From positions 1-33,639 of the forward strand of contig CACZGM010000016.1 of assembly GCA_902780695.1 (NCBI GenBank): 33,639 nt of DNA, written 5' to 3'. Origin of the DNA: an uncultured Ruminococcus sp. (GTDB lineage Bacteria; Bacillota; Clostridia; Oscillospirales; Ruminococcaceae). Position numbers and translations under genes: made by a program. This document shows positions 1,479 through 13,157 of this stretch, piece after piece. Every line of letters starts with the position of its first letter. Within the stretch, counting starts at the first letter, position 1. Below the pieces are notes generated by a model. It was not told where the DNA came from. It saw nothing but the letters and a program-made list of their open reading frames with translations, and did not search any database.

Positions 1479-2654
1479 TTAATGATGGAACAGTCTGATA
1501 CCGGTGAACGCCATAGCGATGCCGTACTTGTTGCAGGTCTCGATGACGTTGTCGTCGCGTATGGAACCGCCGGGCTGAGCGATGAACTCAACGCCGCTGC
1601 GGTGTGCTCTTTCGATGTTGTCGCCGAAGGGGAAGAACGCGTCGGAGCCGAGGGAAACGCCCTTCATTGTGGAGAGCCACTTCTGCTTCTCTTCCTTTGT
1701 GAATACGTCGGGCTTAACCTTGAATATATTCTGCCATGCGCCGTCTGCAAGAACGTCCATGTAGTCCTCACCGATGTAGAGGTCTATAGCATTGTCGCGG
1801 TCTGCGCGTCTGATCGTGTCAACGAACTGAAGTCCGAGTACCTGCGGAGACTGGCGGAGATACCAGTTGTCCGCCTTTGTTCCGGCAAGACGGGTGCAGT
1901 GTATTCTGGACTGCTGACCCGCGCCGATACCGATAGCCTGACCGCCGCAGGCATAAGCTACAGAGTTGGACTGTGTGTATTTGAGGGTTATAAGCGATAT
2001 GATAAGGTCGATCTTTGCGGACTCGGGAATGTTCTTGTTTTCGGTCACGATGTTAGCAAACAGCTCGTCGTTTATCACAAGCTCATTTCTGCCCTGCTCA
2101 AATGTGATGCCGTAAACCTGCTTGCGCTCGATCGGATCGGGGGTGTAGTCGGGGTCTATCTTGATGATGTTATATGTGCCTTTTCTCTTGGTCTTGAGGA
2201 TCTCAAGCGCTTCCTGCTCATAGCCGGGAGCTATAACGCCGTCGGAAACTTCGCGCTGTATCATCTTTGCGGTCGAAACGTCGCACACGTCGGACAGCGA
2301 GATGAAATCGCCGTAAGAAGACATTCTGTCTGCGCCTCTTGCTCTTGCGTATGCACAGGCAAGGGGAGAGAGCTTTCCGAGATCATCGACCCAGTATATC
2401 TTTTTGAGGGTGTCGGTAAGCTCGATACCTACCGCCGCACCGGCAGGGGAAACGTGCTTGAAGGAAGCCGCAGCGGGAAGTCCCGTAGCCTTTTTCAGCT
2501 CCTTTACGAGCTGCCAGCCGTTGAACGCGTCCATGAAGTTGATATAGCCGGGCTTGCCGTTGAGTACCTCTATCGGCAGCTCACCGTTTTCCATAAATAT
2601 TCTCGACGGCTTCTGATTGGGGTTGCAGCCGTACTTTAATTCAAGTTCTTTCAT
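1479..2654 (-). CDS. purH: Stand-alone AICAR transformylase (PurH C-terminal activity)
   Basis: A 391-residue protein for the ninth purine step, formyl transfer from 10-formyl-tetrahydrofolate to AICAR to give FAICAR. It starts with ELKYGCNPNQKPSRI, typical of AICARFT domains, and carries the catalytic Lys-His pair in SFKHVSPAGAA. It lacks the N-terminal IMP cyclohydrolase half of the usual ~510-residue bifunctional PurH. The cyclohydrolase step is supplied by the neighbouring purO-like gene. I placed the start at the ATG at 2652-2654, with GGAGG eight bases upstream. The longer open frame to 2714 adds only an Arg-rich stretch without a ribosome site. It is the last enzyme gene of the operon, 131 bases after purO. 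Confidence 0.92.
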   Translation of the reverse strand: MKELELKYGCNPNQKPSRIFMENGELPIEVLNGKPGYINFMDAFNGWQLVKELKKATGLPAAASFKHVSPAGAAVGIELTDTLKKIYWVDDLGKLSPLACAYARARGADRMSSYGDFISLSDVCDVSTAKMIQREVSDGVIAPGYEQEALEILKTKRKGTYNIIKIDPDYTPDPIERKQVYGITFEQGRNELVINDELFANIVTENKNIPESAKIDLIISLITLKYTQSNSVAYACGGQAIGIGAGQQSRIHCTRLAGTKADNWYLRQSPQVLGLQFVDTIRRADRDNAIDLYIGEDYMDVLADGAWQNIFKVKPDVFTKEEKQKWLSTMKGVSLGSDAFFPFGDNIERAHRSGVEFIAQPGGSIRDDNVIETCNKYGIAMAFTGIRLFHH

Positions 2655-2709
2655 TCTGTGATACCTCCATATTCGGCGTCTGCGTCTTTGTGCTTTAGTC
2701 CTTTGAGCC

Positions 2710-2747
2710 GACACTTTTATGCGCGCATCATACGCGCTTTTGGTGTC
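2710..2747. other. Hairpin in the purO to purH gap
   Basis: GACAC (2710-2714) pairs with GTGTC (2743-2747), enclosing GCGCG/CGCGC (2721-2725 with 2733-2737). There is no T-run. It may adjust the relative expression or stability of purO and purH messages. Confidence 0.35.
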
Positions 2748-2785
2748 AGCCGCAGTGCTGCGTGACGCTGCACCCGACAGTATAA

Positions 2786-3502
2786 TTAATTGTTTTTGTT
2801 CACTATACGGGAGTCAAATTTACCCGTTTCTATGTCTATATATCTTGTGAAGAGGGATACCTTGTTGTCCTTGTTGAGATTATCCCATACGAGCTTGGTG
2901 AAGTCGTCCAGCGAAAGGTCGGGGATAATAACACGCTTGGGCTCTCCTTCAAAGCTCGGCAGCGGGTCGCCGGCACCCTTGTATGTGTGAATGAAGCGTC
3001 CTTCGCCGCTCTTGGGGCAGCTGTATGCGTATGTGTTGCGCACGGTGCATTCCGGGTCGCCGTCAAGGCTCTTTATGATATGCATAGCGTAGTTCATATT
3101 GCCGCAGTCGGCGTGAACTATGCCGGAAATACGGGGAGTATAGTTCGGCTTGTCGTCCTCGAATTCGCGGAAGCGAAGAGACTGCTCAAAGGTCTGCTGC
3201 TTGTCCATCTGCTCGTAGATAGTGTCGGTCTGATCGCCGTTGGTAACTATCGTCTTGGTTCCGAGCACTTTTACAGGAGCGTAGATGATGAGATGAGGAT
3301 CGACCATTTTCGACGGGTCGAAAGCCTGTGTGCGTATGCCGTTTCCGTCCTCGACAAAAACACGGTTGCGGCTGTTCTCGCTTCTGCCCATGATGAAGTA
3401 CGCGATAACCGCGTTCTTTCCGTCGGGAGACTTGCCGAGGATAATTCCTCTGCCGTGATAAGCGAGGCTGTTAAGTTCCTTTTCAATGCTAATAAGTTCC
3501 AT
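2786..3502 (-). CDS. purO: IMP cyclohydrolase, archaeal PurO type
   Basis: A 238-residue protein resembling the IMP_cyclohyd (PurO) family, which closes the ring of FAICAR to give IMP, the last step of de novo purine synthesis. Features I associate with the family are LAYHGRGIILGKSPDG near the N-terminus, a YFIMGRSENSRNRVF block, DPHLIIYAP, TPRISGIV and a late GEGRFIHTYKGAGDPLPSF segment. The ATG at 3500-3502 is chosen because AAAGGGG lies eight bases upstream; the longer frame to 3529 overlaps the purN stop. Its place between purN and a cyclohydrolase-less purH strongly supports the call. PurO was first described in archaea but also occurs in clostridia. Confidence 0.88.
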   Translation of the reverse strand: MELISIEKELNSLAYHGRGIILGKSPDGKNAVIAYFIMGRSENSRNRVFVEDGNGIRTQAFDPSKMVDPHLIIYAPVKVLGTKTIVTNGDQTDTIYEQMDKQQTFEQSLRFREFEDDKPNYTPRISGIVHADCGNMNYAMHIIKSLDGDPECTVRNTYAYSCPKSGEGRFIHTYKGAGDPLPSFEGEPKRVIIPDLSLDDFTKLVWDNLNKDNKVSLFTRYIDIETGKFDSRIVNKNN

Positions 3503-3518
3503 ATTGTGACCCCTTTCG

Positions 3519-4145
3519 TCATCTTTCAACGACAGTAACGCCGTTTTCCACCTTTATTTTTCCCTCGCAGAAGAGTCTTACCGCTTCCGGAAGAATCTTC
3601 CACTCCGCCTGTTCCATGACGCGTTTCTGCAAGATCTCGGGCGTATCGCCGTTCTGCACTTCGACCGCCTTTTGCAGTATTATCGGACCGCCGTCGCATT
3701 CCTCGGTGACAAAATGAACGGTAGCTCCCGTTATCTTAACGCCCTTTTTCAGAGCCTCCTCATGGACTTTCAGCCCGTAGTAGCCCTTTCCGCAGAACGA
3801 CGGTATCAGCGCCGGGTGGACGTTCATCATCCTGTACGGGAAAGCCTTGCAGACCTGCTCATCGAGTATCGTCATGAAGCCCGCATAAACGACGAGATCG
3901 GCTTCCGCTTCGACCAGAGCATCGACCATAGCCTTGCTGTAAGCGGCGATATCGGAGTATGCTTTTCTTTCGAGTACCTTTGTTTTTATGAAGTTGTCCT
4001 TTGCGCGTTTGAGTGCGTAAGCGTCGGGCTTTGAGGATATCACGCAGGTGATGCTGCCGTCGCCGAGTTCGCCGCGCTTCTGCGCGTCAATGAGCGCCTG
4101 CAGGTTCGTGCCTCCGCCCGACACGAGAACCGAGATGTTTTTCAT
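3519..4145 (-). CDS. purN: Phosphoribosylglycinamide formyltransferase
   Basis: A 208-residue GAR transformylase of the 10-formyl-THF-dependent PurN family. The N-terminal SVLVSGGGTNLQAL is the phosphate-binding loop. The catalytic Asn and His are in MMNVHPALIPSF (about residues 108-119), and the Asp is in EECDGGPIILQ. Length is normal for the family. Its ATG overlaps the stop of the upstream unknown gene by four bases (ATGA), so the two are translationally coupled, and purO follows after 16 bases. It converts GAR to FGAR in the third committed step of purine synthesis. Confidence 0.95.
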   Translation of the reverse strand: MKNISVLVSGGGTNLQALIDAQKRGELGDGSITCVISSKPDAYALKRAKDNFIKTKVLERKAYSDIAAYSKAMVDALVEAEADLVVYAGFMTILDEQVCKAFPYRMMNVHPALIPSFCGKGYYGLKVHEEALKKGVKITGATVHFVTEECDGGPIILQKAVEVQNGDTPEILQKRVMEQAEWKILPEAVRLFCEGKIKVENGVTVVER

Positions 4146-4951
4146 TGCTTTTCCTCCGTAATGAGTCCGTATTCCTTCAGTTTCAGCAGGTTGTGCGCCC
4201 TGCGGCGTTCAAGCTCGGCAAAAGCCTTTTCGTGCATAGCAGGGTCGAACGCGCCGGCTGCTTTCACCGCTTCGAGCTTTGCGGTAAAGCGTTCGAGGTC
4301 GTCCTGCGTGTAAAACGTTCCGATGTTCCGCTTCATGGCATCTTTCCGGGACTCCATGCCCTTGAGAAGCTCCTGCCGGTCTTTCAGAAGATACACGAGC
4401 AGCCCCTCGGTATAGTAATTGTTCGGGTTTTCGTTATTGAAGCTGTTTGTCTCGTCATAAAGCGGCAAAGACGCGTTTCCGTAATATCTAAAATGCTCGT
4501 AACACGAGGGGATATCGGCAGCGCTGTCAAAGATCGGGAGCATTATCCTTGCTGTATGCCTGCACGCTCTTTCAAGCGTGTTCATAAGCGCGTTGTCATT
4601 ATCTTCATACCTGAATGATCTGATCGAATTGTGAAGAGCCTCCTGAACCGCATTTAAAGGGCTGTTTGCCTTCAAAAAGTAATGTGACAGCGCTTTCAGC
4701 CAAGGGGTACTGTCATGCGGGCAGACGGTAAGATCTATACTCTGCCTGTAAACGGTAGCAGTGCCGCACAGAACGTTGAACGCTTTGAAGCCGGGCTTGT
4801 ATTCGCGGTCGGGGCTTACCGATACGATCTGCACTATCTCATTGCCCGGCATGACCCGAGCCAGATACGGCTGTCTGCCTTTCACCTTCACAAACCCGTA
4901 TTCCTTCAAGCCCTCGCCGAACACCTGTTTAAACGCCGTATTAAGTGTCAT
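4142..4951 (-). CDS. Unknown protein inside the purine operon (DUF4304-like N-terminus)
   Basis: A 269-residue soluble protein that I do not recognise securely. The first half (LNTAFKQVF, a YLARVMPGNEIVQIVSV strand pair, then FNVLCGTATVY) reminds me of DUF4304-type proteins. The second half is helical and charged, ending with an AELERRRAHNLLKLKEYG helix. No signal peptide, membrane segment or catalytic motif is visible. CGGAG lies about eight bases before the ATG. It lies 54 bases after purM, and its TGA overlaps the purN ATG, so it is expressed as part of the operon. A role in purine synthesis is possible, but position is the only support. Confidence 0.75.
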   Translation of the reverse strand: MTLNTAFKQVFGEGLKEYGFVKVKGRQPYLARVMPGNEIVQIVSVSPDREYKPGFKAFNVLCGTATVYRQSIDLTVCPHDSTPWLKALSHYFLKANSPLNAVQEALHNSIRSFRYEDNDNALMNTLERACRHTARIMLPIFDSAADIPSCYEHFRYYGNASLPLYDETNSFNNENPNNYYTEGLLVYLLKDRQELLKGMESRKDAMKRNIGTFYTQDDLERFTAKLEAVKAAGAFDPAMHEKAFAELERRRAHNLLKLKEYGLITEEKQ

Positions 4952-4975
4952 ATTGATCTCCGTACAGCCGAAATC

Positions 4976-5000
4976 GGGCGCTGCCGTAAAAACAGCGCCC
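4976..5000. other. Hairpin between purM and the unknown gene
   Basis: A perfect 8-bp GC-rich stem (4976-4983 with 4993-5000, loop of nine) just after the purM stop. On the minus strand it is followed by GATTT rather than a T-run, so it may be a weak terminator or an mRNA-stabilising stem. Confidence 0.45.
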
Positions 5001-5005
5001 TCGCA

Positions 5006-6043
5006 TTACTTTATTATTATCGCCTTTTCGGACTTGTCTATCGTGCCTATCCTGCACGCGTTGCAGCCGTTCGCGTTCAGCACTTCGACTGCCTTGTCCG
5101 CTTCTTCCGCGGGAACGACAATCGACATACCGATACCCATGTTGAAGGTGTTGAACATATCGTGCTCATCTATGCCGCCGCGCTCCTGCAGGAGTTTGAA
5201 GATATACGGCACTTCCCAGCTTCCCTTGTCGATGACAGCGGTAAACCCGTCGGGTATCGAACGCGGGATATTCTCATAGAAGCCGCCGCCGGTGATATGA
5301 CTTATCGCTTTGACCTGCACCTTGCTTATAAGATCGAGCACAGGCTTCACATACAGATTTGTGGGTGTGAGCAGAGTCTCGCCGAGAGTTCTGCCGTCCG
5401 GCAGCTTTTCATCGAGCACTTCCTTTTTATCTATGCCAAATACCTTGCGCACAAGAGAAAATCCGTTTGAGTGTACGCCGGAGGATGCAAGTCCGATTAT
5501 CGCGTCACCGACCTGCACCTTTGAGCCGTCGATTATTGCCTTCTTGCTGACGATGCCTACCGAGAAGCCGCCCACATCGTATTCGTCCTCGGGCATAAGA
5601 CCGGGATGCTCGGCAGTCTCGCCGCCGATAAGCGCACATCCGGACTCAACGCAGCCGTCCGCTATGCCTTTTACGATAGATGCGATCTTTGCCGGCTCGT
5701 TCTTGCCGCACGCGATATAGTCAAGGAAGAACAGGGGCTTTGCGCCGCAGCAGATTATATCGTTGACGCACATGGCCACAGCGTCGATACCTATGGTGTC
5801 ATGCTTGTCGAGCAGAAACGCGAGTTTGATCTTCGTACCTACGCCGTCCGTGCCGGAAACGAGCACCGGATCGTCATATTCCTTCGGGTCAAGCTCAAAA
5901 AGCCCGCCGAATCCGCCGATGCTGTCGATAGCGCCTTTTATGCGTGTGCGCTCGACGTGCTCCTTCATCAGCTTTACGGCTTCGTAACCCGCGGTAACAT
6001 CAACGCCCGCGGCTTTGTAGCTTTCGGAATGACTGTCTTTCAT
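5006..6043 (-). CDS. purM: Phosphoribosylformylglycinamidine cyclo-ligase (AIR synthetase)
   Basis: A 345-residue PurM. It has [15 protein letters not shown] at the N-terminus and [13 protein letters not shown] for the ATP-binding loop. [30 protein letters not shown] and [14 protein letters not shown] follow, then [13 protein letters not shown]. The protein converts FGAM to AIR using ATP. Length is normal. AAAGGA stands nine bases before the ATG. It follows purF after a 157-base gap that holds a hairpin and an AT-rich repeat, the largest break inside this operon. Confidence 0.96.
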
Positions 6044-6089
6044 ATTGTTATTCCTTTCGTATCGGTTAACAGTTATTTCTATGTTCCCG

Positions 6090-6132
6090 AATTGTGACGA
6101 GCAGAAAACAGGGCTGTAAATACGTCACGATT
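6090..6132. other. Imperfect hairpin upstream of purM
   Basis: AATTGTGACG (6090-6099) and CGTCACGATT (6123-6132) can pair in 9 of 10 positions around a 23-base loop. It has no T-run. It may be part of the intergenic repeat that follows. Confidence 0.35.
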
Positions 6133-6139
6133 CAGATAT

Positions 6140-6198
6140 GTCGCCGCAGGCGACTCCACAATTCTTCATTATTCGTTATTCACTATTCAATATTCACT
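6140..6198. repeat. Intergenic GC-hairpin plus TTCATTA-type direct repeat
   Basis: GTCGCC-GCA-GGCGAC (6140-6154) is followed by about five degenerate copies of a seven-base unit (TTCATTA, TTCGTTA, TTCACTA, TTCAATA, TTCAC) up to the purF stop. I recall similar elements, a GC stem beside ATTCATTATTCATTA-like tracts, scattered between genes in clostridial genomes. That this is a dispersed repeat is inference from a single copy. Confidence 0.5.
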
Positions 6199-6200
6199 GC

Positions 6201-7622
6201 TTATTCTTTCCCGTTCCAGCAGTAGGTGCAGAGCTTGCACTCGGGAAGACCTACGGCGCGGACAGTGCCTGGCAGTGACTGGAATTCGAGAGAGGTGAGC
6301 TTCAGTCTGCGGCAGATCTCGTCGCGGAGATATTTGCCGCGTTCAGTCGAGGAATCGCTGTATTCGTCAATGTATTTTACTCCCTCGCTGCCTTCCTTTT
6401 CCTGTATGATCTGTCTTGCGATAAGATCAAGTTCGGAATTGCTGCGGGAGAAGTTGAGGTACTTGCAGCCGTACATTATCGGCGGACAGGCAGATCTCAT
6501 ATGTACTTCCTTCGCACCGTTCTCGTACAGAAATTCAACGGTCTCGCGCATCTGTGTGCCGCGGACGATACTGTCGTCAACGAACAGCAGTTTCTTTCCC
6601 TCGATAAGTTCATGCACCGGCACGAGCTTCATTTTTGCGACCCTGTTGCGCATAGCCTGCGTCTGCGGCATGAAGCTGCGCGGCCATGTGGGAGTGTACT
6701 TTATAAAAGGTCTTGCGAAAGGTATGCCGCTCTTGTTGGCATAGCCTATAGCGTGCGGTATGCCGGAATCCGGAACTCCGCAGACGTAGTCAACGTCCGG
6801 CAGTCTGCCGTTCTTTATGTCGGTCTCTGCCATTATCTCGCCGTTGCGTGCGCGCATCACCTCTACGTTCACACCCTCGTAAACGGCGTTCGGATAACCG
6901 TAATAAGTCCAGAGGAAAGTGCATATCCTCATATTGAAGGAGCCGGGCTCCAGCGTTTCACAGCCGTCGGCGGTCAGTCTGACTATTTCACCCGCCGCAA
7001 GCTCCTTGTATGTCTTATAGCCGAGCTTCTGGAACGCGAACGATTCGAATGACAGGCAGTATCCGTCGCTGCGCTTTCCTATTATTATAGGAAGTCTTCC
7101 GCGCTTGTCACGCGCAGCTATTATACAGTCCTTGGTCATTATCAGCAGAGTGAGCGTGCCGTCGATCTTCTCCTGCGCGTACTTGATGCCGTCCGTGAAG
7201 TTGTCCTTCTGTGCTATAAGTGCGCCGATAAGAGCGCTGGAATTGATGTTTCCGCTGCTCATGGACTCAAAGTTCGCGCAGCCGTTGTCGAGCAGCTCGT
7301 TGTACAGCTCATTTGCGTTGTTGATGATGCCGACGTTGCATATAGCATACAGACCGAGCTTGGAGGTCACAAGTATCGGCTGCGGGTCGGAGTCGCTTAT
7401 GCAGCCGATGCACAGCTTGCCGTGTATTCCCGCCGCATCGCTCTCGAATTTTGTTCTGAACGGCGAGTTCTCTATGCTGTGAATGCTTCTCTGAAATCCG
7501 AGCTCGGGAGAATACGCCGCCATACCGCCGCGCCTTGTGCCGAGGTGAGAATGATAGTCGGTTCCGAAGAATACATCGGAAATACAGTCGTTATGCGAGA
7601 TCGCACCGAAAAATCCACCCAT
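6201..7622 (-). CDS. purF: PurF-like amidophosphoribosyltransferase with degenerate glutaminase site
   Basis: A 473-residue relative of PurF, which makes 5-phosphoribosylamine from PRPP and glutamine. The C-terminal phosphoribosyltransferase half looks intact: VCGVPDSGIPHAIGYA (280-295) and the PRPP loop FVDDSIVRGTQ (347-357). Cys 234, 386, 462 and 465 match the spacing of the [4Fe-4S] ligands known in Bacillus subtilis PurF. The N-terminal Ntn half is eroded. It starts MGGFFGA instead of M-C-G-[VI]-F-G, so the nucleophile Cys is Gly. The RYST glutamine-binding block is replaced by GCISD, and the usual NGN block reads CNVGI. Similar MGGFFG copies occur in other clostridia, often beside a normal PurF elsewhere. 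It may use free ammonia or a partner glutaminase, or have a regulatory role. Confidence 0.88.
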   Translation of the reverse strand: MGGFFGAISHNDCISDVFFGTDYHSHLGTRRGGMAAYSPELGFQRSIHSIENSPFRTKFESDAAGIHGKLCIGCISDSDPQPILVTSKLGLYAICNVGIINNANELYNELLDNGCANFESMSSGNINSSALIGALIAQKDNFTDGIKYAQEKIDGTLTLLIMTKDCIIAARDKRGRLPIIIGKRSDGYCLSFESFAFQKLGYKTYKELAAGEIVRLTADGCETLEPGSFNMRICTFLWTYYGYPNAVYEGVNVEVMRARNGEIMAETDIKNGRLPDVDYVCGVPDSGIPHAIGYANKSGIPFARPFIKYTPTWPRSFMPQTQAMRNRVAKMKLVPVHELIEGKKLLFVDDSIVRGTQMRETVEFLYENGAKEVHMRSACPPIMYGCKYLNFSRSNSELDLIARQIIQEKEGSEGVKYIDEYSDSSTERGKYLRDEICRRLKLTSLEFQSLPGTVRAVGLPECKLCTYCWNGKE

Positions 7623-7654
7623 GTGTGTCCAAACCTTTCGTTATGCGGCGCGTA

Positions 7655-8362
7655 TTATTCGCCGAAAATTCTTCTTCTGATCTCCTTGTAAGCGTCCTCT
7701 ACGCCGCCCATATCTCTGCGGAAACGATCCTTGTCGAGCTTCTCGTGTGTCTTGGAATCCCAGAAACGGCAGGTATCGGGAGAAATCTCGTCGGCAAGGA
7801 GTATCTGACCCTTGAAACGGCCGAATTCGATCTTGAAGTCGATAAGGTCAATGCCTATCTCCTTGAAATATTTCAGCATGAATTCGTTTACCTTGAACGC
7901 ATACTTAGCGATAGTATCGAGCTCTTCCTTGGTAGCGATGCCGAGCGCAAGTGCATAGTAGTCGTTGATGAACGGGTCGCCGAGATCGTCGTTCTTGTAG
8001 CTGTATTCAAGGATAGGTGTGAGCAGAGCCTTGCCTTCTTCAACGCCCATTCTCTTGGAGAAGCTGCCTGCGGCAACGTTTCTGATGATGACTTCGAGCT
8101 GTACGATCTCAACTTTCTTGACGAGAGTTTCACGGTCGCTGAGCTCCTTGACGAGGTGTGTAGGAACGCCTTCCTTTTCAAGCAGACCGAACATATAGTT
8201 TGTCATCTTGTTGTTGATAACGCCCTTGCCTTCGATCGTGCCTTTCTTGAGGCCGTTGAATGCGGTAGCGTCGTCCTTGTAGGAGACGATAACGAGATCG
8301 GGATCGTCTGTTGCGAAAACCTTCTTTGCTTTTCCTTCATAGAGCTGTTCTTTCTTTTCCAT
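7655..8362 (-). CDS. purC: SAICAR synthetase
   Basis: A 235-residue PurC, joining CAIR and aspartate with ATP to give SAICAR. Recognised blocks are [10 protein letters not shown] (7-16), [24 protein letters not shown], a VEVIIRN-like strand reading [30 protein letters not shown] and [10 protein letters not shown] followed by [16 protein letters not shown]. All are typical and the length is standard for the bacterial enzyme. GGAAGG precedes the ATG by ten bases. It lies 20 bases after purE and 32 bases before purF in one operon. Confidence 0.97.
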
Positions 8363-8382: not shown

Positions 8383-8880
8383 TTATATTTCCTTAGCAGT
8401 TTCCTGCATTTTTGCATCTGCGGCAAGGTTCTTCTTATGCTGTTCTTCCTTGAATTCCGCGTATTTCTGCGCAAGCTCGTCGTCGGAAACGGCGAGTATC
8501 TGCACCGCAAGATATCCCGCGTTTGCCGCACAGTCTATGCCGACAGTGGCGACGGGAACTCCGGGGGGCATCATAACGGAGGAGAGCAGGGAATCCATGC
8601 CCTCAAGTGCCTTTGCCTTTACGGGGAGAGCAATGACAGGAAGCACTGTGTTTGCGGCAAGAGCCCCGGCAAGGTGAGCTGCCATTCCGGCGGCTCCTAT
8701 AATAACGCCGAAGCCGTTGTCTCTTGCGCTTCTGGCGAACTCTGCGGCTTCAACGGGAGAACGGTGCGCCGAGAACACGTGCATCTCAAACGGTACGCCG
8801 AACTGTTTCAGTGCTTCGGCAGCCTTTCGTACAACGGGAAGATCGCTGTCGCTTCCCATGATGATAGCAGCTTTTTTCAT
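8383..8880 (-). CDS. purE: N5-CAIR mutase, class I PurE
   Basis: A 165-residue PurE, first gene of the operon. It has GSDSDLPVV (9-17), the catalytic loop FSAHRSP and [14 protein letters not shown], which are typical of class I PurE enzymes that convert N5-CAIR to CAIR. A class I enzyme normally needs PurK, but no purK is in the window. AAAGGA lies nine bases before the ATG. The T-run of a terminator ends about five bases before this ribosome site, so expression depends on read-through of the leader. Confidence 0.96.
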
Positions 8881-8903
8881 AACTCACATTCCTTTCAAAA
8901 AAA

Positions 8904-8931
8904 CAAAAAAGCCGTACTTTCGGTTACAGCT
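8904..8931 (-). terminator. Attenuator terminator just ahead of purE
   Basis: On the minus strand, AGCTGTA (8931-8925) pairs with TACGGCT (8916-8910), including one T-G pair, around an 8-base loop. A run of T follows at 8910-8905 and continues as GTTTTTTT. The purE ribosome site begins only a few bases further on, leaving no room for another promoter. The stem must therefore be bypassed for the operon to be read. Confidence 0.75.
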
Positions 8932-8945
8932 CGAAAATCCTTAAA

Positions 8946-9037
8946 ATATCCCGCATAAAGAACACCCGCGGCTGTCTTGCCGTTTCTTCTGCACAACAGT
9001 GAGTCTTGTTCACGCGAACCACTCCGATCCGGGATAT
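8946..9037 (-). promoter_or_regulatory. Structured 5' leader of the purine operon, riboswitch-like, class unassigned
   Basis: Read on the minus strand, ATATCCCG (9037-9030) and CGGGATAT (8953-8946) form a perfect closing stem. Inside, GAACA pairs with TGTTC, and CTGTTGTGC pairs with GCAAGACAG apart from one G-A mismatch, capped by a 10-base loop. A short GTTC-GCGT-GAAC hairpin is an alternative fold near the 5' side. ACAGC (plus 8971-8975) could pair with GCTGT (plus 8926-8930) in the terminator stem, a possible antiterminator. I could not match it to the purine, PRPP, ZTP or tetrahydrofolate consensus. It is shorter than typical 6S RNA. The ligand or factor is unknown. Confidence 0.55.
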
Positions 9038-9040
9038 ACC

Positions 9041-9046
9041 ATTATA
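9041..9046 (-). promoter_or_regulatory. -10 box of the purE operon promoter
   Basis: A perfect TATAAT on the minus strand. The -35 region is weak (TTTTCC, 16 bases upstream). A start about seven bases downstream would place the RNA 5' end right at the closing stem of the leader. Confidence 0.6.
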
Positions 9047-9260
9047 ATATAATACAAAATATGGAAAACGGGGAAATGCTCCCGTCAATATACCGTGTTT
9101 CAGATCCGGTATGACCATATATTTATTTTACAATATTTTATGACTAAATTCAAGCATTTTCCAAAAATAATTTCAACATTTTTTCGTTTCGGGGCAGATA
9201 CAAAACAGTGATATTGCACAATACACACCTGTTGAAAACTTTTTAAGGGAGAAAATTAAA

Positions 9261-9347
9261 GTGGATATTAAGCAAATTAAGCGAAAACACCGCCTTGAAT
9301 TAGGTAAAAAACAGGATAAAAGCGGTTACAAAGGTATTACAATTTAG
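9261..9347 (+). CDS. Candidate 28-codon ORF in the purE/ABC intergenic region
   Basis: A GTG with GGGAG eight bases upstream opens a 28-codon frame ending TAG. The peptide is very basic (MDIKQIKRKHRLELGKK then QDKSGYKGITI). The surrounding 650 bases are otherwise non-coding. It could be a leader peptide or chance; the only evidence is the ribosome site and base composition. Confidence 0.25.
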   Translation: MDIKQIKRKHRLELGKKQDKSGYKGITI

Positions 9348-9677: not shown

Positions 9678-9781
9678 TACAAATGAAATCGCGGGGCGAT
9701 GATTTAATCAAAGCCTGCGCGATGGAAAAAATCAAAAACGTTCCGTAAGATACGGAACAAAAATCTTTGGAGGAAAGAACT

Positions 9782-11218
9782 ATGAAGAAAAGAATAACTT
9801 CCGCACTTCTCGCTTCCGCTGTTATCCTGTCGGTAGCCGGCTGTGGCGGAACAACAACACCCGCTTCTACAACAGCTGCTGCACCCGCTGCAACAGAAGC
9901 TGCCGCAACTGAGGCTGCTGCTACTGAAGCTGCTGCAACCGAGGCTGCTGCTACTGAAGAAGCTGCTCCTGCTGCTAACACAGACAACAGCGGTACAGTA
10001 TTCAACATCCGTGCATGGAACGAGGAATTCAAGGGATTCTTCGAGAAGTATATGCCCGGCTACGATGCATCCGCTCAGACTCTTGACGGTGTTCCGGTAG
10101 TATGGACAATCGTTCCTTCTGACGATCTGGCTTACCAGAACGCTCTTGACGAAGCTCTCCAGAAGAACGCTTCCGCTTCCGCTGATGACAAGGTTGATAT
10201 GTTCCTTGCTGAGGCTGACTACATCCTCAAGTACACAGATTCCGACTTCACAATGGATATCGCTAACCTCGGCGTAAACCAGGTTGACACTGAGTACCAG
10301 TACACAGTATCCGCTGCTTCCGACAGCAACGGCAAGATCAAGGGTGTATCCTTCCAGTGCTGCCCGTCCGCTCTTATCTACAGAAGATCTATAGCTAAGG
10401 ACGTTCTCGGTACAGATGATCCTGATCAGGTACAGGCTGCTCTCGATTCTTGGGCAAAGTATGATGACGTTGCTAAGCAGGCTAAGGACAAGGGCTACTA
10501 CATGCACGCTTCCTTCGCTGAAACATACCGTGTATTCTCCAACAACGCTGACGGCGCTTGGGTAACCGGCGGCCAGCTCACAATCCCTGCTGTAGTCGAT
10601 CAGTGGACAGAGCAGGCTAAGACCTACTTCGACAACGGCTATATCCTCGACACATGCCCCGGCATCTGGGACGACGGAAAGAACGCTGAGATGTTCGCAA
10701 CAGGTAAGACAATGTGCTTCTTCGGTCCTGCTTGGTACTTCAACTTCTGCATGGGCAACGCACAGGATCCCGACAACGGCTGCTTCGGCGACTGGGCTAT
10801 CTGCAAGGGACCGCAGGGTCACTTCTGGGGCGGTACATGGATCCTCGCAGCAACAGGCACAGACAACGGCGACCTCGTTGCTAAGGTTATGAAGGCATTC
10901 ACAGAGAATGAAGAAGTTTGTGAGAACCTCATCGTTAACGAAGGTCAGTTCACAAACAACAAGAAGGTTAACGAGAAGTTCGCTAACGATCCTTCCTTCG
11001 GTGTTGACTTCCTCGGCGGTCAGAACGCTACTGCGGTATTCTGCGGCATGACAGACTCCATCAAGTGGGAGAACGCTACTATCTACGATCAGGCTTGCAA
11101 CGAAGGTTACCAGAACTTCATCAAGACCTACATCAACGGTACAACAACTAAGGAAGCTTCCCTCGCTGACTTCTACACCTACATCAACGAGAAGTATCCT
11201 GCAGTTCAGACTCCGTGA
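9782..11218 (+). CDS. Sugar ABC transporter substrate-binding lipoprotein
   Basis: A 478-residue family 1-type extracellular solute-binding protein. Residues 1-21 are a lipoprotein signal (MKKRI, hydrophobic core, lipobox SVAGC with Cys 21). Residues 22-70 are a Thr/Ala/Glu linker with about five tandem ATEAA units, a tether from the membrane. The mature domain follows, with ALDEALQKNAS, CFFGPAWYFNFCMGN and a WGGTWILAATGT segment typical of sugar-binding proteins. The start at 9782 has GGAGG nine bases upstream; the TTG further upstream lies in the ribosome site and is rejected. Codons are strongly biased (GCT, AAC, CTC), suggesting high expression. Two permease genes follow; the exact sugar cannot be told. 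Confidence 0.9.
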   Translation: MKKRITSALLASAVILSVAGCGGTTTPASTTAAAPAATEAAATEAAATEAAATEAAATEEAAPAANTDNSGTVFNIRAWNEEFKGFFEKYMPGYDASAQTLDGVPVVWTIVPSDDLAYQNALDEALQKNASASADDKVDMFLAEADYILKYTDSDFTMDIANLGVNQVDTEYQYTVSAASDSNGKIKGVSFQCCPSALIYRRSIAKDVLGTDDPDQVQAALDSWAKYDDVAKQAKDKGYYMHASFAETYRVFSNNADGAWVTGGQLTIPAVVDQWTEQAKTYFDNGYILDTCPGIWDDGKNAEMFATGKTMCFFGPAWYFNFCMGNAQDPDNGCFGDWAICKGPQGHFWGGTWILAATGTDNGDLVAKVMKAFTENEEVCENLIVNEGQFTNNKKVNEKFANDPSFGVDFLGGQNATAVFCGMTDSIKWENATIYDQACNEGYQNFIKTYINGTTTKEASLADFYTYINEKYPAVQTP

Positions 11219-11319: not shown

Positions 11320-12279
11320 ATGAGTTCGACAACTACCACCGCACCGGCAAAGCACAAATCGATAAGCTATGCAAAATGGGGTTATTTCTTTATCGCGCCG
11401 TTTGTTATTGTTTATCTTTTCTGCTCGCTGATACCGCTGCTTTCCACGTTTTATAACTCCCTTTTTGAGAACTATATGGACGGTCTGAAACAGATCGGAC
11501 CGAATTTCGTAGGTCTGCAGAACTTCATCTCAATATTCACTCCTCGTTCTTCCGACGGTAAGATGGAAATTTTCAGCTATACCGGAAATACGATGATCAT
11601 GTGGGTCATGGGTGCTGTACCGCAGATCGTTTTTGCGCTTCTCCTCGCTGTTATTTTCACGAGTGAGAGAATGAAGATCAAGGGACAGGGATTCTTCAAG
11701 ACAGTTATCTATATGCCTAACCTGATAATGGCGTCGGCGTTCGCAATGCTGTTCTTCCAGATCTTCTCGTCTGTTGGTCCTATCAACCAGATCATTACGG
11801 CTAACGGAGGTTCCGCGTTCCTGTTCTTCGACAATGAATGGTCGGCAAGAACAATAATCGCGTTCATCAACTTCCTGATGTGGTTCGGTAACACGACGAT
11901 CCTGCTTATGGCGGGTATCATGGGTATCGACCAGAGCCTTTTCGAAGCTGCTTCGATAGACGGTGCGAACTCCACTCAGGTGTTCTTCCGCATAACTATC
12001 CCGCTGCTTATGCCTATTATAATTTACGTTGTTATCACAGCCCTCATAGGCGGTCTGCAGATGTTCGACGTACCGCAGATCATCACCTCCGGCAAGGGCA
12101 ACCCGAGCAACACTACCAAGACGCTCGTTATGGCACTTAACGGCTATATCGGACTCAGCAAGAACTACGGTATGGCTGGTGCTTATTCCTTCTTCCTGTT
12201 CATCGTAACAGGCGCTCTGAGTGTATTAGTATTCAAGTCCACAGAGCCCAAGAAGGAAAAGAAAGGAGGTAAGAAGTAA
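11320..12279 (+). CDS. Sugar ABC transporter permease, MalF/UgpA type
   Basis: A 319-residue inner-membrane permease with six predicted membrane helices, the first being YFFIAPFVIVYLFCSLIPLL at about residues 22-41. The cytoplasmic EAA loop that contacts the ATPase reads EAASIDGANSTQVFFRITIPLL at about residues 207-228. The C-terminus is Lys-rich (EPKKEKKGGKK). GAGAGG lies ten bases upstream of the ATG. Its TAA shares an A with the ATG of the second permease (TAATG), so the pair is coupled. No ATPase gene is in the window; such importers commonly use one shared MsmK-type ATPase encoded elsewhere. Confidence 0.93.
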   Translation: MSSTTTTAPAKHKSISYAKWGYFFIAPFVIVYLFCSLIPLLSTFYNSLFENYMDGLKQIGPNFVGLQNFISIFTPRSSDGKMEIFSYTGNTMIMWVMGAVPQIVFALLLAVIFTSERMKIKGQGFFKTVIYMPNLIMASAFAMLFFQIFSSVGPINQIITANGGSAFLFFDNEWSARTIIAFINFLMWFGNTTILLMAGIMGIDQSLFEAASIDGANSTQVFFRITIPLLMPIIIYVVITALIGGLQMFDVPQIITSGKGNPSNTTKTLVMALNGYIGLSKNYGMAGAYSFFLFIVTGALSVLVFKSTEPKKEKKGGKK

Positions 12280-13157
12280 TGGCAAGCAGAATGGAATACA
12301 TCGATAAGGGCAATAAGACTTCGCTGTTTATTTCGCGTCTTGTTTCTTACATCTTCCTTGTCTTTGTAACTATACTCAGCTTATTCTCCTTTTATCTCCT
12401 TATAATCAACTCCTCCAGAAGCAATGCACAGCTGCAGGCAGGTTTTGAGTTCTTACCCAAGGAGCATTTCTTCGATAACCTTGTTACGGCATGGAACGAC
12501 CAGAGTATATTCTTCCTCCCGCAGGGTATGCTGAACAGCTTCATAGTTGCGGCGCTGACATGTATCCTTACATCGTACTTCTCCGCTATGACAGCTTACG
12601 GCGTATGCGTATATGATTTCAAGGGAAGAAAGTTCATACATAAGGCTATAATCCTTGTTATGATGATACCTACACAGGTTTCCGCCCTCGGTTTCGTACA
12701 GCTCGTAAACAACCTGCATCTTACAAACACATACTGGCCTCTTGTTATCCCGGCTATCGCGGCTCCCTCCACTTATTTCTATATGAAGCAGTACATCGAC
12801 AGTACGCTTCCGCTTGAAATAGTTGAGGCTGCTCGTGTTGACGGTTCCAACGAGTTCAGAACTTACAACTTCATCTGTATGCCGATCCTTAAGCCGGCTC
12901 TGGCTGTTCAGATGATATTCGCTTTCGTCGCATCGTGGAACAACTTCTTTACTCCGGCCCTCATACTGGATAAGAAGGAAATGTACACCCTCCCGATCAT
13001 GCTTTCGATCGTTCGTTCCCGTATCAACTCCCAGGCAGGCGATATGGGTGAGGTTTACATGATAATCCTGCTTGCGATCGTCCCCGTCGTTATAGTTTAC
13101 CTCTTCCTCTCGAAGTTTATCATCGGCGGTGTAACTCTCGGAAGCGTTAAGGGTTAA
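12279..13157 (+). CDS. Sugar ABC transporter permease, MalG/UgpE type
   Basis: A 292-residue second permease of the importer, with about six membrane helices, the first (VSYIFLVFVTILSLFSFYL) at about 22-40. The EAA loop reads EAARVDGSNEFRTYNFICMP near residues 186-205. AAAGGAGG, inside the end of the preceding gene, is a strong ribosome site. The last segment VTLGSVKG is typical for this subfamily. It is the final gene of the operon, followed by a clear terminator at 13178-13206. With the binding lipoprotein and first permease it forms a carbohydrate importer lacking its own ATPase. Confidence 0.93.
   Translation: MASRMEYIDKGNKTSLFISRLVSYIFLVFVTILSLFSFYLLIINSSRSNAQLQAGFEFLPKEHFFDNLVTAWNDQSIFFLPQGMLNSFIVAALTCILTSYFSAMTAYGVCVYDFKGRKFIHKAIILVMMIPTQVSALGFVQLVNNLHLTNTYWPLVIPAIAAPSTYFYMKQYIDSTLPLEIVEAARVDGSNEFRTYNFICMPILKPALAVQMIFAFVASWNNFFTPALILDKKEMYTLPIMLSIVRSRINSQAGDMGEVYMIILLAIVPVVIVYLFLSKFIIGGVTLGSVKG

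Follow-up and report, generated by a model that had tools for sequence, protein, structure and literature searches.

Upstream of purE in an uncultured Ruminococcus sp. lies a leader in which an open reading frame (ORF), led by a Shine-Dalgarno sequence, runs from a predicted promoter to an intrinsic terminator, placed between that promoter and purE, and ends inside the terminator's 5' arm. The window, by which we mean the whole stretch of 33,639 nucleotides that was analysed, carries this arrangement at the head of a purine biosynthesis operon, and the same ORF-terminator layout is seen in sequences from the genus, the family and the order of the window. It is the best supported feature of the leader, and a translated attenuator in the window itself is well supported as a prediction from sequence. 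An SD-led ORF that stops at a terminator, taken with pause-like sites in other genera, points to translation-coupled transcription attenuation. That the leader is such an attenuator of the purE operon, with purine shortage acting through polymerase pausing as the proposed signal, is a tentative reading that we place close to an even chance without reaching it.

All of the attenuator elements before purE are on the minus strand (Table 1). Behind purE follow purC, a PurF-like gene, purM, an ORF (4142-4951), purN, and genes for IMP cyclohydrolase and AICAR formyltransferase, as assigned with NCBIfam and Pfam; the PurF-like protein scores below its family cut-off. The ORF between purM and purN (minus strand, 269 aa) has no match in Pfam or NCBIfam and may belong to the purine operon as an uncharacterised member. 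Elsewhere in the window, an ORF without a family (9767-11218, plus strand, 483 aa) directly precedes two ABC permease genes (11320-13157) and perhaps encodes a fast-evolving substrate-binding protein.

Table 1. Coordinates of the purE leader and of the operon that it precedes, in positions of the window.
Feature	Position	Strand	Basis
-10 element TATAAT (9046-9041), predicted leader promoter	9041..9046	-	sequence; conserved block in clade alignment
Putative Shine-Dalgarno GGAG, 8 nt ahead of the leader ORF's GTG	9022..9025	-	sequence; also at the matching place in L069 and L088
Leader ORF, 29 codons, GTG start (9013), TAA stop (8926-8924) in the terminator 5' arm	8924..9013	-	sequence; layout in relatives
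Complementary arms (9037-9030 and 8953-8946) of the 8-bp stem in the earlier note	8946..9037	-	not conserved
Weak candidate pause site: G-11 8963, T8955 G8954 C-1 8953, G+1 8952	8952..8963	-	sequence
Intrinsic terminator hairpin (8932-8909), then T-run	8909..8932	-	terminator scan; sole clade-wide structure
Shine-Dalgarno AAAGGAA of purE	8889..8895	-	sequence
purE, first gene of the purine operon	8383..8880	-	TIGR01162, 188.5 bits against a cut-off of 149.6
Rest of the purine operon, 3' of purE	1479..8362	-	NCBIfam and Pfam

An earlier note on this DNA, made from the letters alone, had described a perfect TATAAT before purE, a long-range stem, and a separate terminator whose T-run ends at the purE ribosome site. 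All three exist, although the stem is not conserved and the leader ORF had been overlooked. The TATAAT belongs to a -10 block that is conserved in a 15-sequence alignment of the clade; the output of a simple promoter scan did not include this promoter, which has no good -35 element. The T-run of the terminator extends to the Shine-Dalgarno sequence of purE, and the region 8700-9300 holds four terminator-like sites against 0.6 expected from shuffles.

To place the leader among its relatives, we used three samples of purE upstream regions. The training sample held 196 unique regions (genus plus family), of which 122 had a terminator scoring at least 23 within 110 nt; removal of 17 ZTP- or PyrR-like sequences left 105, and a redundancy filter reduced these to 88. 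A hold-out of 60 loci, fetched afterwards, came down to 32 (21 without a terminator, four ZTP-like and three redundant), and an order-level sample of 30 loci came down to eight (16 without a terminator and six ZTP-like). The terminator of the window leader scores 21, below the cut, so the window leader stands outside these counts. An ORF was counted when it was SD-led, was 12 to 60 codons long and stopped within -18 to +13 nt of the terminator. This layout was present in 67 of the 88 training leaders, whereas 50 shuffles gave a mean of 7.1 and a maximum of 15; in 27 of the 32 held-out leaders (shuffles 3.1, maximum 7); and in seven of the eight order-level leaders. The 30 leaders from the genus of the window, which are a subset of the 88, contributed 23. 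Over 94 ORFs, the median stop position was -7 relative to the terminator.

In the close clade of the window (21 loci, L039-L059), a terminator at most 60 nt from purE was detected automatically in 14, and in 13 of these 14 an SD-led ORF stopped within -18 to +45 of the hairpin. The automatic rule missed a long-loop terminator in L058 that is visible in the alignment, and it took the wrong hairpin in L054; the loci without a terminator are L042, L043, L044, L046, L050 and L059. With the exception of L059, these loci, and also L071, have neither leader nor terminator. There the promoter adjoins purE, with the same -10 block directly before the gene, and immediately upstream there is an inverted repeat of the type TACAACAT...ATGTTGTA, which may be a repressor operator that has taken the place of the attenuator. 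Other types of leader were also encountered before purE. Sequences resembling the ZTP riboswitch, CTGACGG...CCGTCTGGGCA, occur as pattern matches in other genera (L109-L113, L120, L124, L125 and others). In Erysipelotrichaceae-like MAGs (L117, L121, L128; also L105, L108, L139), a sequence like a PyrR-binding loop, recognised by eye and with a simple pattern, precedes purE, and in these loci it is followed by a short ORF, a terminator and the purine gene.

The structural claims of the earlier note gave a different result from its promoter and terminator. The arms of its 8-bp stem are complementary (ATATCCCG with CGGGATAT on the minus strand), but they showed no covariation, and in the 15 clade sequences 66.4% of cells were paired as compared with 66.0% in shuffles; the stem is probably not functional. 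RNAalifold on the clade leaders (15 sequences) recovered the terminator only. The fold of the whole leader was not above chance (MFE -40.1, z -0.78, with 37 of 200 shuffles equally stable). The pair ACAGC/GCTGT, put forward as a possible antiterminator, does no better: in 120 leaders the longest stretch complementary to the 5' arm of the terminator averaged 4.28 nt, against 4.31 nt in shuffles. The remark that the leader fits none of the known purine-related riboswitches holds, since an Rfam cmscan of the whole window returned zero matches at gathering score; with the threshold relaxed to E<=10, the region 8850-9200 gave a single weak match, S774, at E=1.3. A transcription attenuator without an Rfam family before the purine operon is what these results support. 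An undescribed RNA class, which the earlier note had thought possible, is not supported, because the stem does not covary, the terminator is the sole structure that the clade shares and the antiterminator pairing is at chance level. The note had itself named missing covariation among homologues as the outcome that would speak against its idea, and this was the outcome for the stem. No conserved, covarying aptamer appeared among the 15 clade sequences. A new riboswitch for a purine-pathway ligand would be compatible with the empty Rfam search and with a terminator immediately upstream of purE; given a leader whose one conserved structure is that terminator and whose fold has a z of -0.78, we consider it very improbable.

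We then turn to the sequence of the leaders rather than their folding. A general EM search had at an earlier stage yielded T-rich composition motifs before GG..TGYR; in the 88 training leaders, EM gave the strand-specific motif G G N A T N N N T G Y R. The form GGN6TGYR occurs at 57 sites in these leaders (100 shuffles: 10.8, maximum 21). Its spacing variants N5 and N7 occur at 49 and 30 sites and those with N2-4 and N8-11 at 7 to 14, and the TGYY versions are at background. The motif was learnt on the training leaders, and the hold-out is therefore the real test. There, GGN6TGYR was found at 35 sites in 21 of the 32 leaders against 4.5 expected, and GGN6TGYA at 31 sites against 2.2, numbers reached by none of 200 shuffles in either case; the leader sequences are related, and the motif sites in all of these counts are not all independent. 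The N5 and N7 variants numbered 24 and 13. Spacing was less clean in the hold-out, with nine GGN4TGYR sites (4.7; 5 of 200 shuffles) and ten GGN7TGYY sites (4.5; 3 of 200). The order-level leaders had nine GGN6TGYR sites against 1.0 (0 of 100 shuffles), and N9 spacing occurred four times against 0.9 (1 of 100).

The base at +1 of the N6 sites was A in 39, G in 18, T in 5 and C in 4 training cases, and A in 31, G in 4 and a pyrimidine in 7 held-out cases. GGN5-7TGYA reaches 10.8 per kb in 120 leaders as compared with 1.2 per kb on the sense strand of 381 kb of downstream operon; the purE coding sequence is a less favourable background, with 2.5 per kb, and 4.0 per kb for GGN6TGYY. In ORF-bearing leaders, 108 of 124 motif sites fall inside the ORF, and their codon phases (26/49/33) indicate that the constraint is mostly on the nucleotides and not on the peptide. 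The E. coli pause element found in vivo consists of G at -10 (or -9 or -11) and TGC-1G+1 (PMC4457086, available part), and a similar element is described in the available part of PMC10268239. The leaders agree with that consensus, which may not be the one of these bacteria, except that +1 is mostly A. As a sequence motif, then, pause-like sites with a purine at +1 are present upstream of the terminator in the relatives, and the motif may pause RNA polymerase in these bacteria; the A in place of the consensus G could be a lineage habit of the polymerase.

The genus of the window differs from the other genera in this respect. GGN5-7TGYR has 11 sites in its 30 leaders (shuffles 6.9, maximum 15) and occurs in 9 of the 30 (shuffles 5.4, maximum 10), so it is not enriched, whereas the other genera have 125 sites in 58 leaders against 25.7 and the held-out leaders 72 sites in 32 against 13.1. 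A position weight matrix (PWM) score of at least 7 was reached by 13 of the 30 own-genus leaders as compared with 3.05 in shuffles, with a PWM that had been trained on those leaders. In the window leader the best PWM score is 3.5, which is no good match. Its weak candidate site has counterparts at the corresponding position of L069 and L088, and by our own estimate about one match as weak is expected by chance per 110 nt. Neither the leader of the window nor its genus thus shows the pause sites of the relatives. Because the enrichment comes from other genera and the match in the window is weak, purine sensing in the window is extrapolated from relatives, and its copy of the leader may work as the pause-rich ones would.

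The mechanism that we propose for the translation-coupled attenuator would run as follows. Transcription would begin just upstream, and a ribosome would initiate on the leader ORF, which has its stop codon at the terminator's 5' arm or adjoining it. A ribosome close behind the polymerase would mask the 5' arm and permit read-through into purECFM and beyond; with the polymerase further ahead, the hairpin would form and transcription would end. Pause sites (G at -9 to -12, TGY at -3 to -1, purine at +1) would hold the polymerase until ATP (or GTP) binds. Under purine shortage the pauses would be longer, the ribosome would catch up and the operon would be turned on, a purine counterpart of pyrBI; with purines plentiful, the polymerase would outrun the ribosome and terminate. 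The coupling, the role of a purine NTP as signal and the direction in which control runs are inferred. The broader proposal, that the main purine operon of Oscillospirales is under a coupled attenuator that senses purine NTPs through a mostly-A pause array inside an ORF stopping on the terminator, is possible, at somewhat below even confidence. Several points bear on these proposals. The ATP pool of the cell usually far exceeds the needs of RNA polymerase. Many of the ORFs end 5-13 nt short of the arm, a distance at which a ribosome finishing translation would only abut it, and this counts against the proposal. Bacillota are placed among the bacteria with runaway transcription (PMC13323073, available part), which argues against coupling. 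In E. coli, the ribosome represses terminators that follow a stop codon within a few bp (PMC4824070, available part).

Among known systems, the pyrL leader of the E. coli pyrBI operon is the closest comparison. The window and its relatives have, in their sequence, an SD-led ORF that extends as far as the terminator or enters it. In pyrL the ORF runs through the terminator, whereas here the stop is usually at the terminator edge. Both share a nucleotide biosynthesis operon and, as predicted here, a translated leader that reaches an intrinsic terminator, pause sites before that terminator and a ribosome near the polymerase that blocks the hairpin; in pyrBI, the terminator is kept from forming when polymerase and ribosome stay coupled over the leader (PMC5021804, available part). 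The E. coli system governs a pyrimidine operon, senses UTP through a U-rich tract and is proven by experiment, in contrast to the purine operon, the TGY|A/G motif and the Bacillota host of the leader described here, which is known from its sequence. In B. subtilis, the tlrB/yxjB and vmlR leaders likewise require pausing and a translated leader in a member of the Bacillota, but they respond to antibiotics through ribosome stalling and not to nucleotide pools (PMC6851288 and PMC9226507, available parts). The guanine, PRPP, ZTP and THF riboswitches also control purine genes by premature termination; they differ in having an Rfam match and an aptamer structure, both of which are absent here. The attenuators of trp and his share a leader ORF, a terminator and pausing, and they differ in their run of a single codon and their antiterminator. 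Neither was found in these leaders, which have no dominant amino acid and a terminator complement at shuffle level. The main text of a survey of attenuation (PMC2965389, available part) does not contain the word 'purine' and reports Firmicutes leader peptides for hisS. A search of the open-access literature, which may miss subscription papers and other wording, found no purine analogue of the pyrBI attenuator.

The same layout can be read with translation as the sensor. In his and trp leaders pauses synchronise polymerase and ribosome, and the pauses here might merely do likewise while translation reads the signal, be it charged tRNA, initiation capacity or the nascent peptide. The ORF-terminator layout, being the strongest feature, suits this explanation, as does the composition of the 94 ORFs, in which Ser makes up 10.8% in frame (6.0 and 6.8 out of frame) and Gly 8.1 (4.7 and 5.8). 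We nevertheless hold it to be unlikely, as no amino acid is dominant or clustered, the peptides vary among close relatives and shift frame, an antiterminator complement was not found, and the preference for A over the consensus G at +1 is left unexplained. Two more specific ideas about the ORF were set aside. A conserved or arrest peptide, suggested by a GISVS-like string that recurs by eye, was dropped because the nucleotides behind it are conserved whichever of the three frames they fall in, while the peptides diverge; amino-acid sensing was rejected, the excess of Ser and Gly being mild.

Two further explanations place less weight on the ORF or on the leader as a whole. The GGN5-7UGYR repeats could be the site of an RNA-binding protein that affects termination in either direction, with the ORF secondary; multiple copies per leader of a strand-specific, single-strand motif would be expected of such a site. 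Yet the spacing, the 3' TGY and the G at -9 to -12 match a pause element, and a protein site has no need of an ORF ending at the terminator, so we regard this as improbable. The leader of the window's own clade could also be a decaying or unregulated remnant whose ORF, together with the terminator, fixes a basal level while the promoter holds the real control. The missing enrichment of the pause motif in the genus fits that explanation, and so do the five of 21 close-clade loci that lack a leader and have an inverted repeat at their promoter; most of the clade, however, keeps terminator and ORF despite divergence elsewhere in the leader, and we consider a remnant rather unlikely.

We also looked beyond purE for leaders of the same design. 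For guaB, one of 30 loci had a terminator, without an ORF; for purL, none of 30 had a terminator; and for purB, five of 30 had one, with neither an ORF nor a GGN5-7TGYA site. With the layout absent from guaB, purL and purB, there is no wider regulon among these genes. The pyrB upstream regions (70 loci) included 18 with a terminator, two PyrR-like and nine with an ORF near the terminator, some of which are probably not genuine leaders. In those nine, GGN5-7TGYA stands at 0.99 per kb. Five pyrB leaders (L289, L290, L291, L292 and L452), judged by eye, have an ORF and a U-rich tract before the terminator, as in pyrBI, and T makes up on average 43% of the last 20 nt of pyrB leaders against 31% in pur leaders. 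These five pyrB leaders would be the matching pyrimidine case, one that rests on few loci. Upstream of pyrB in L301 and L303, PyrR-like sequences stand in place of the ORF and U-rich leader.

Purine operons are already known to be controlled by repressors and by riboswitches. If the proposed mechanism is true, a large group of bacteria from gut and rumen would use RNA polymerase itself to sense purines, and Bacillota, a phylum assigned to runaway transcription (PMC13323073, available part), would regain coupling at selected leaders through pausing. The pause base would also match the nucleotide that the operon makes, A for pur and a U-rich tract for certain pyr operons within the family. The combination of a pause array, an ORF and a terminator would offer a simple signature for finding nucleotide-sensing attenuators that lie beyond the reach of covariation methods.
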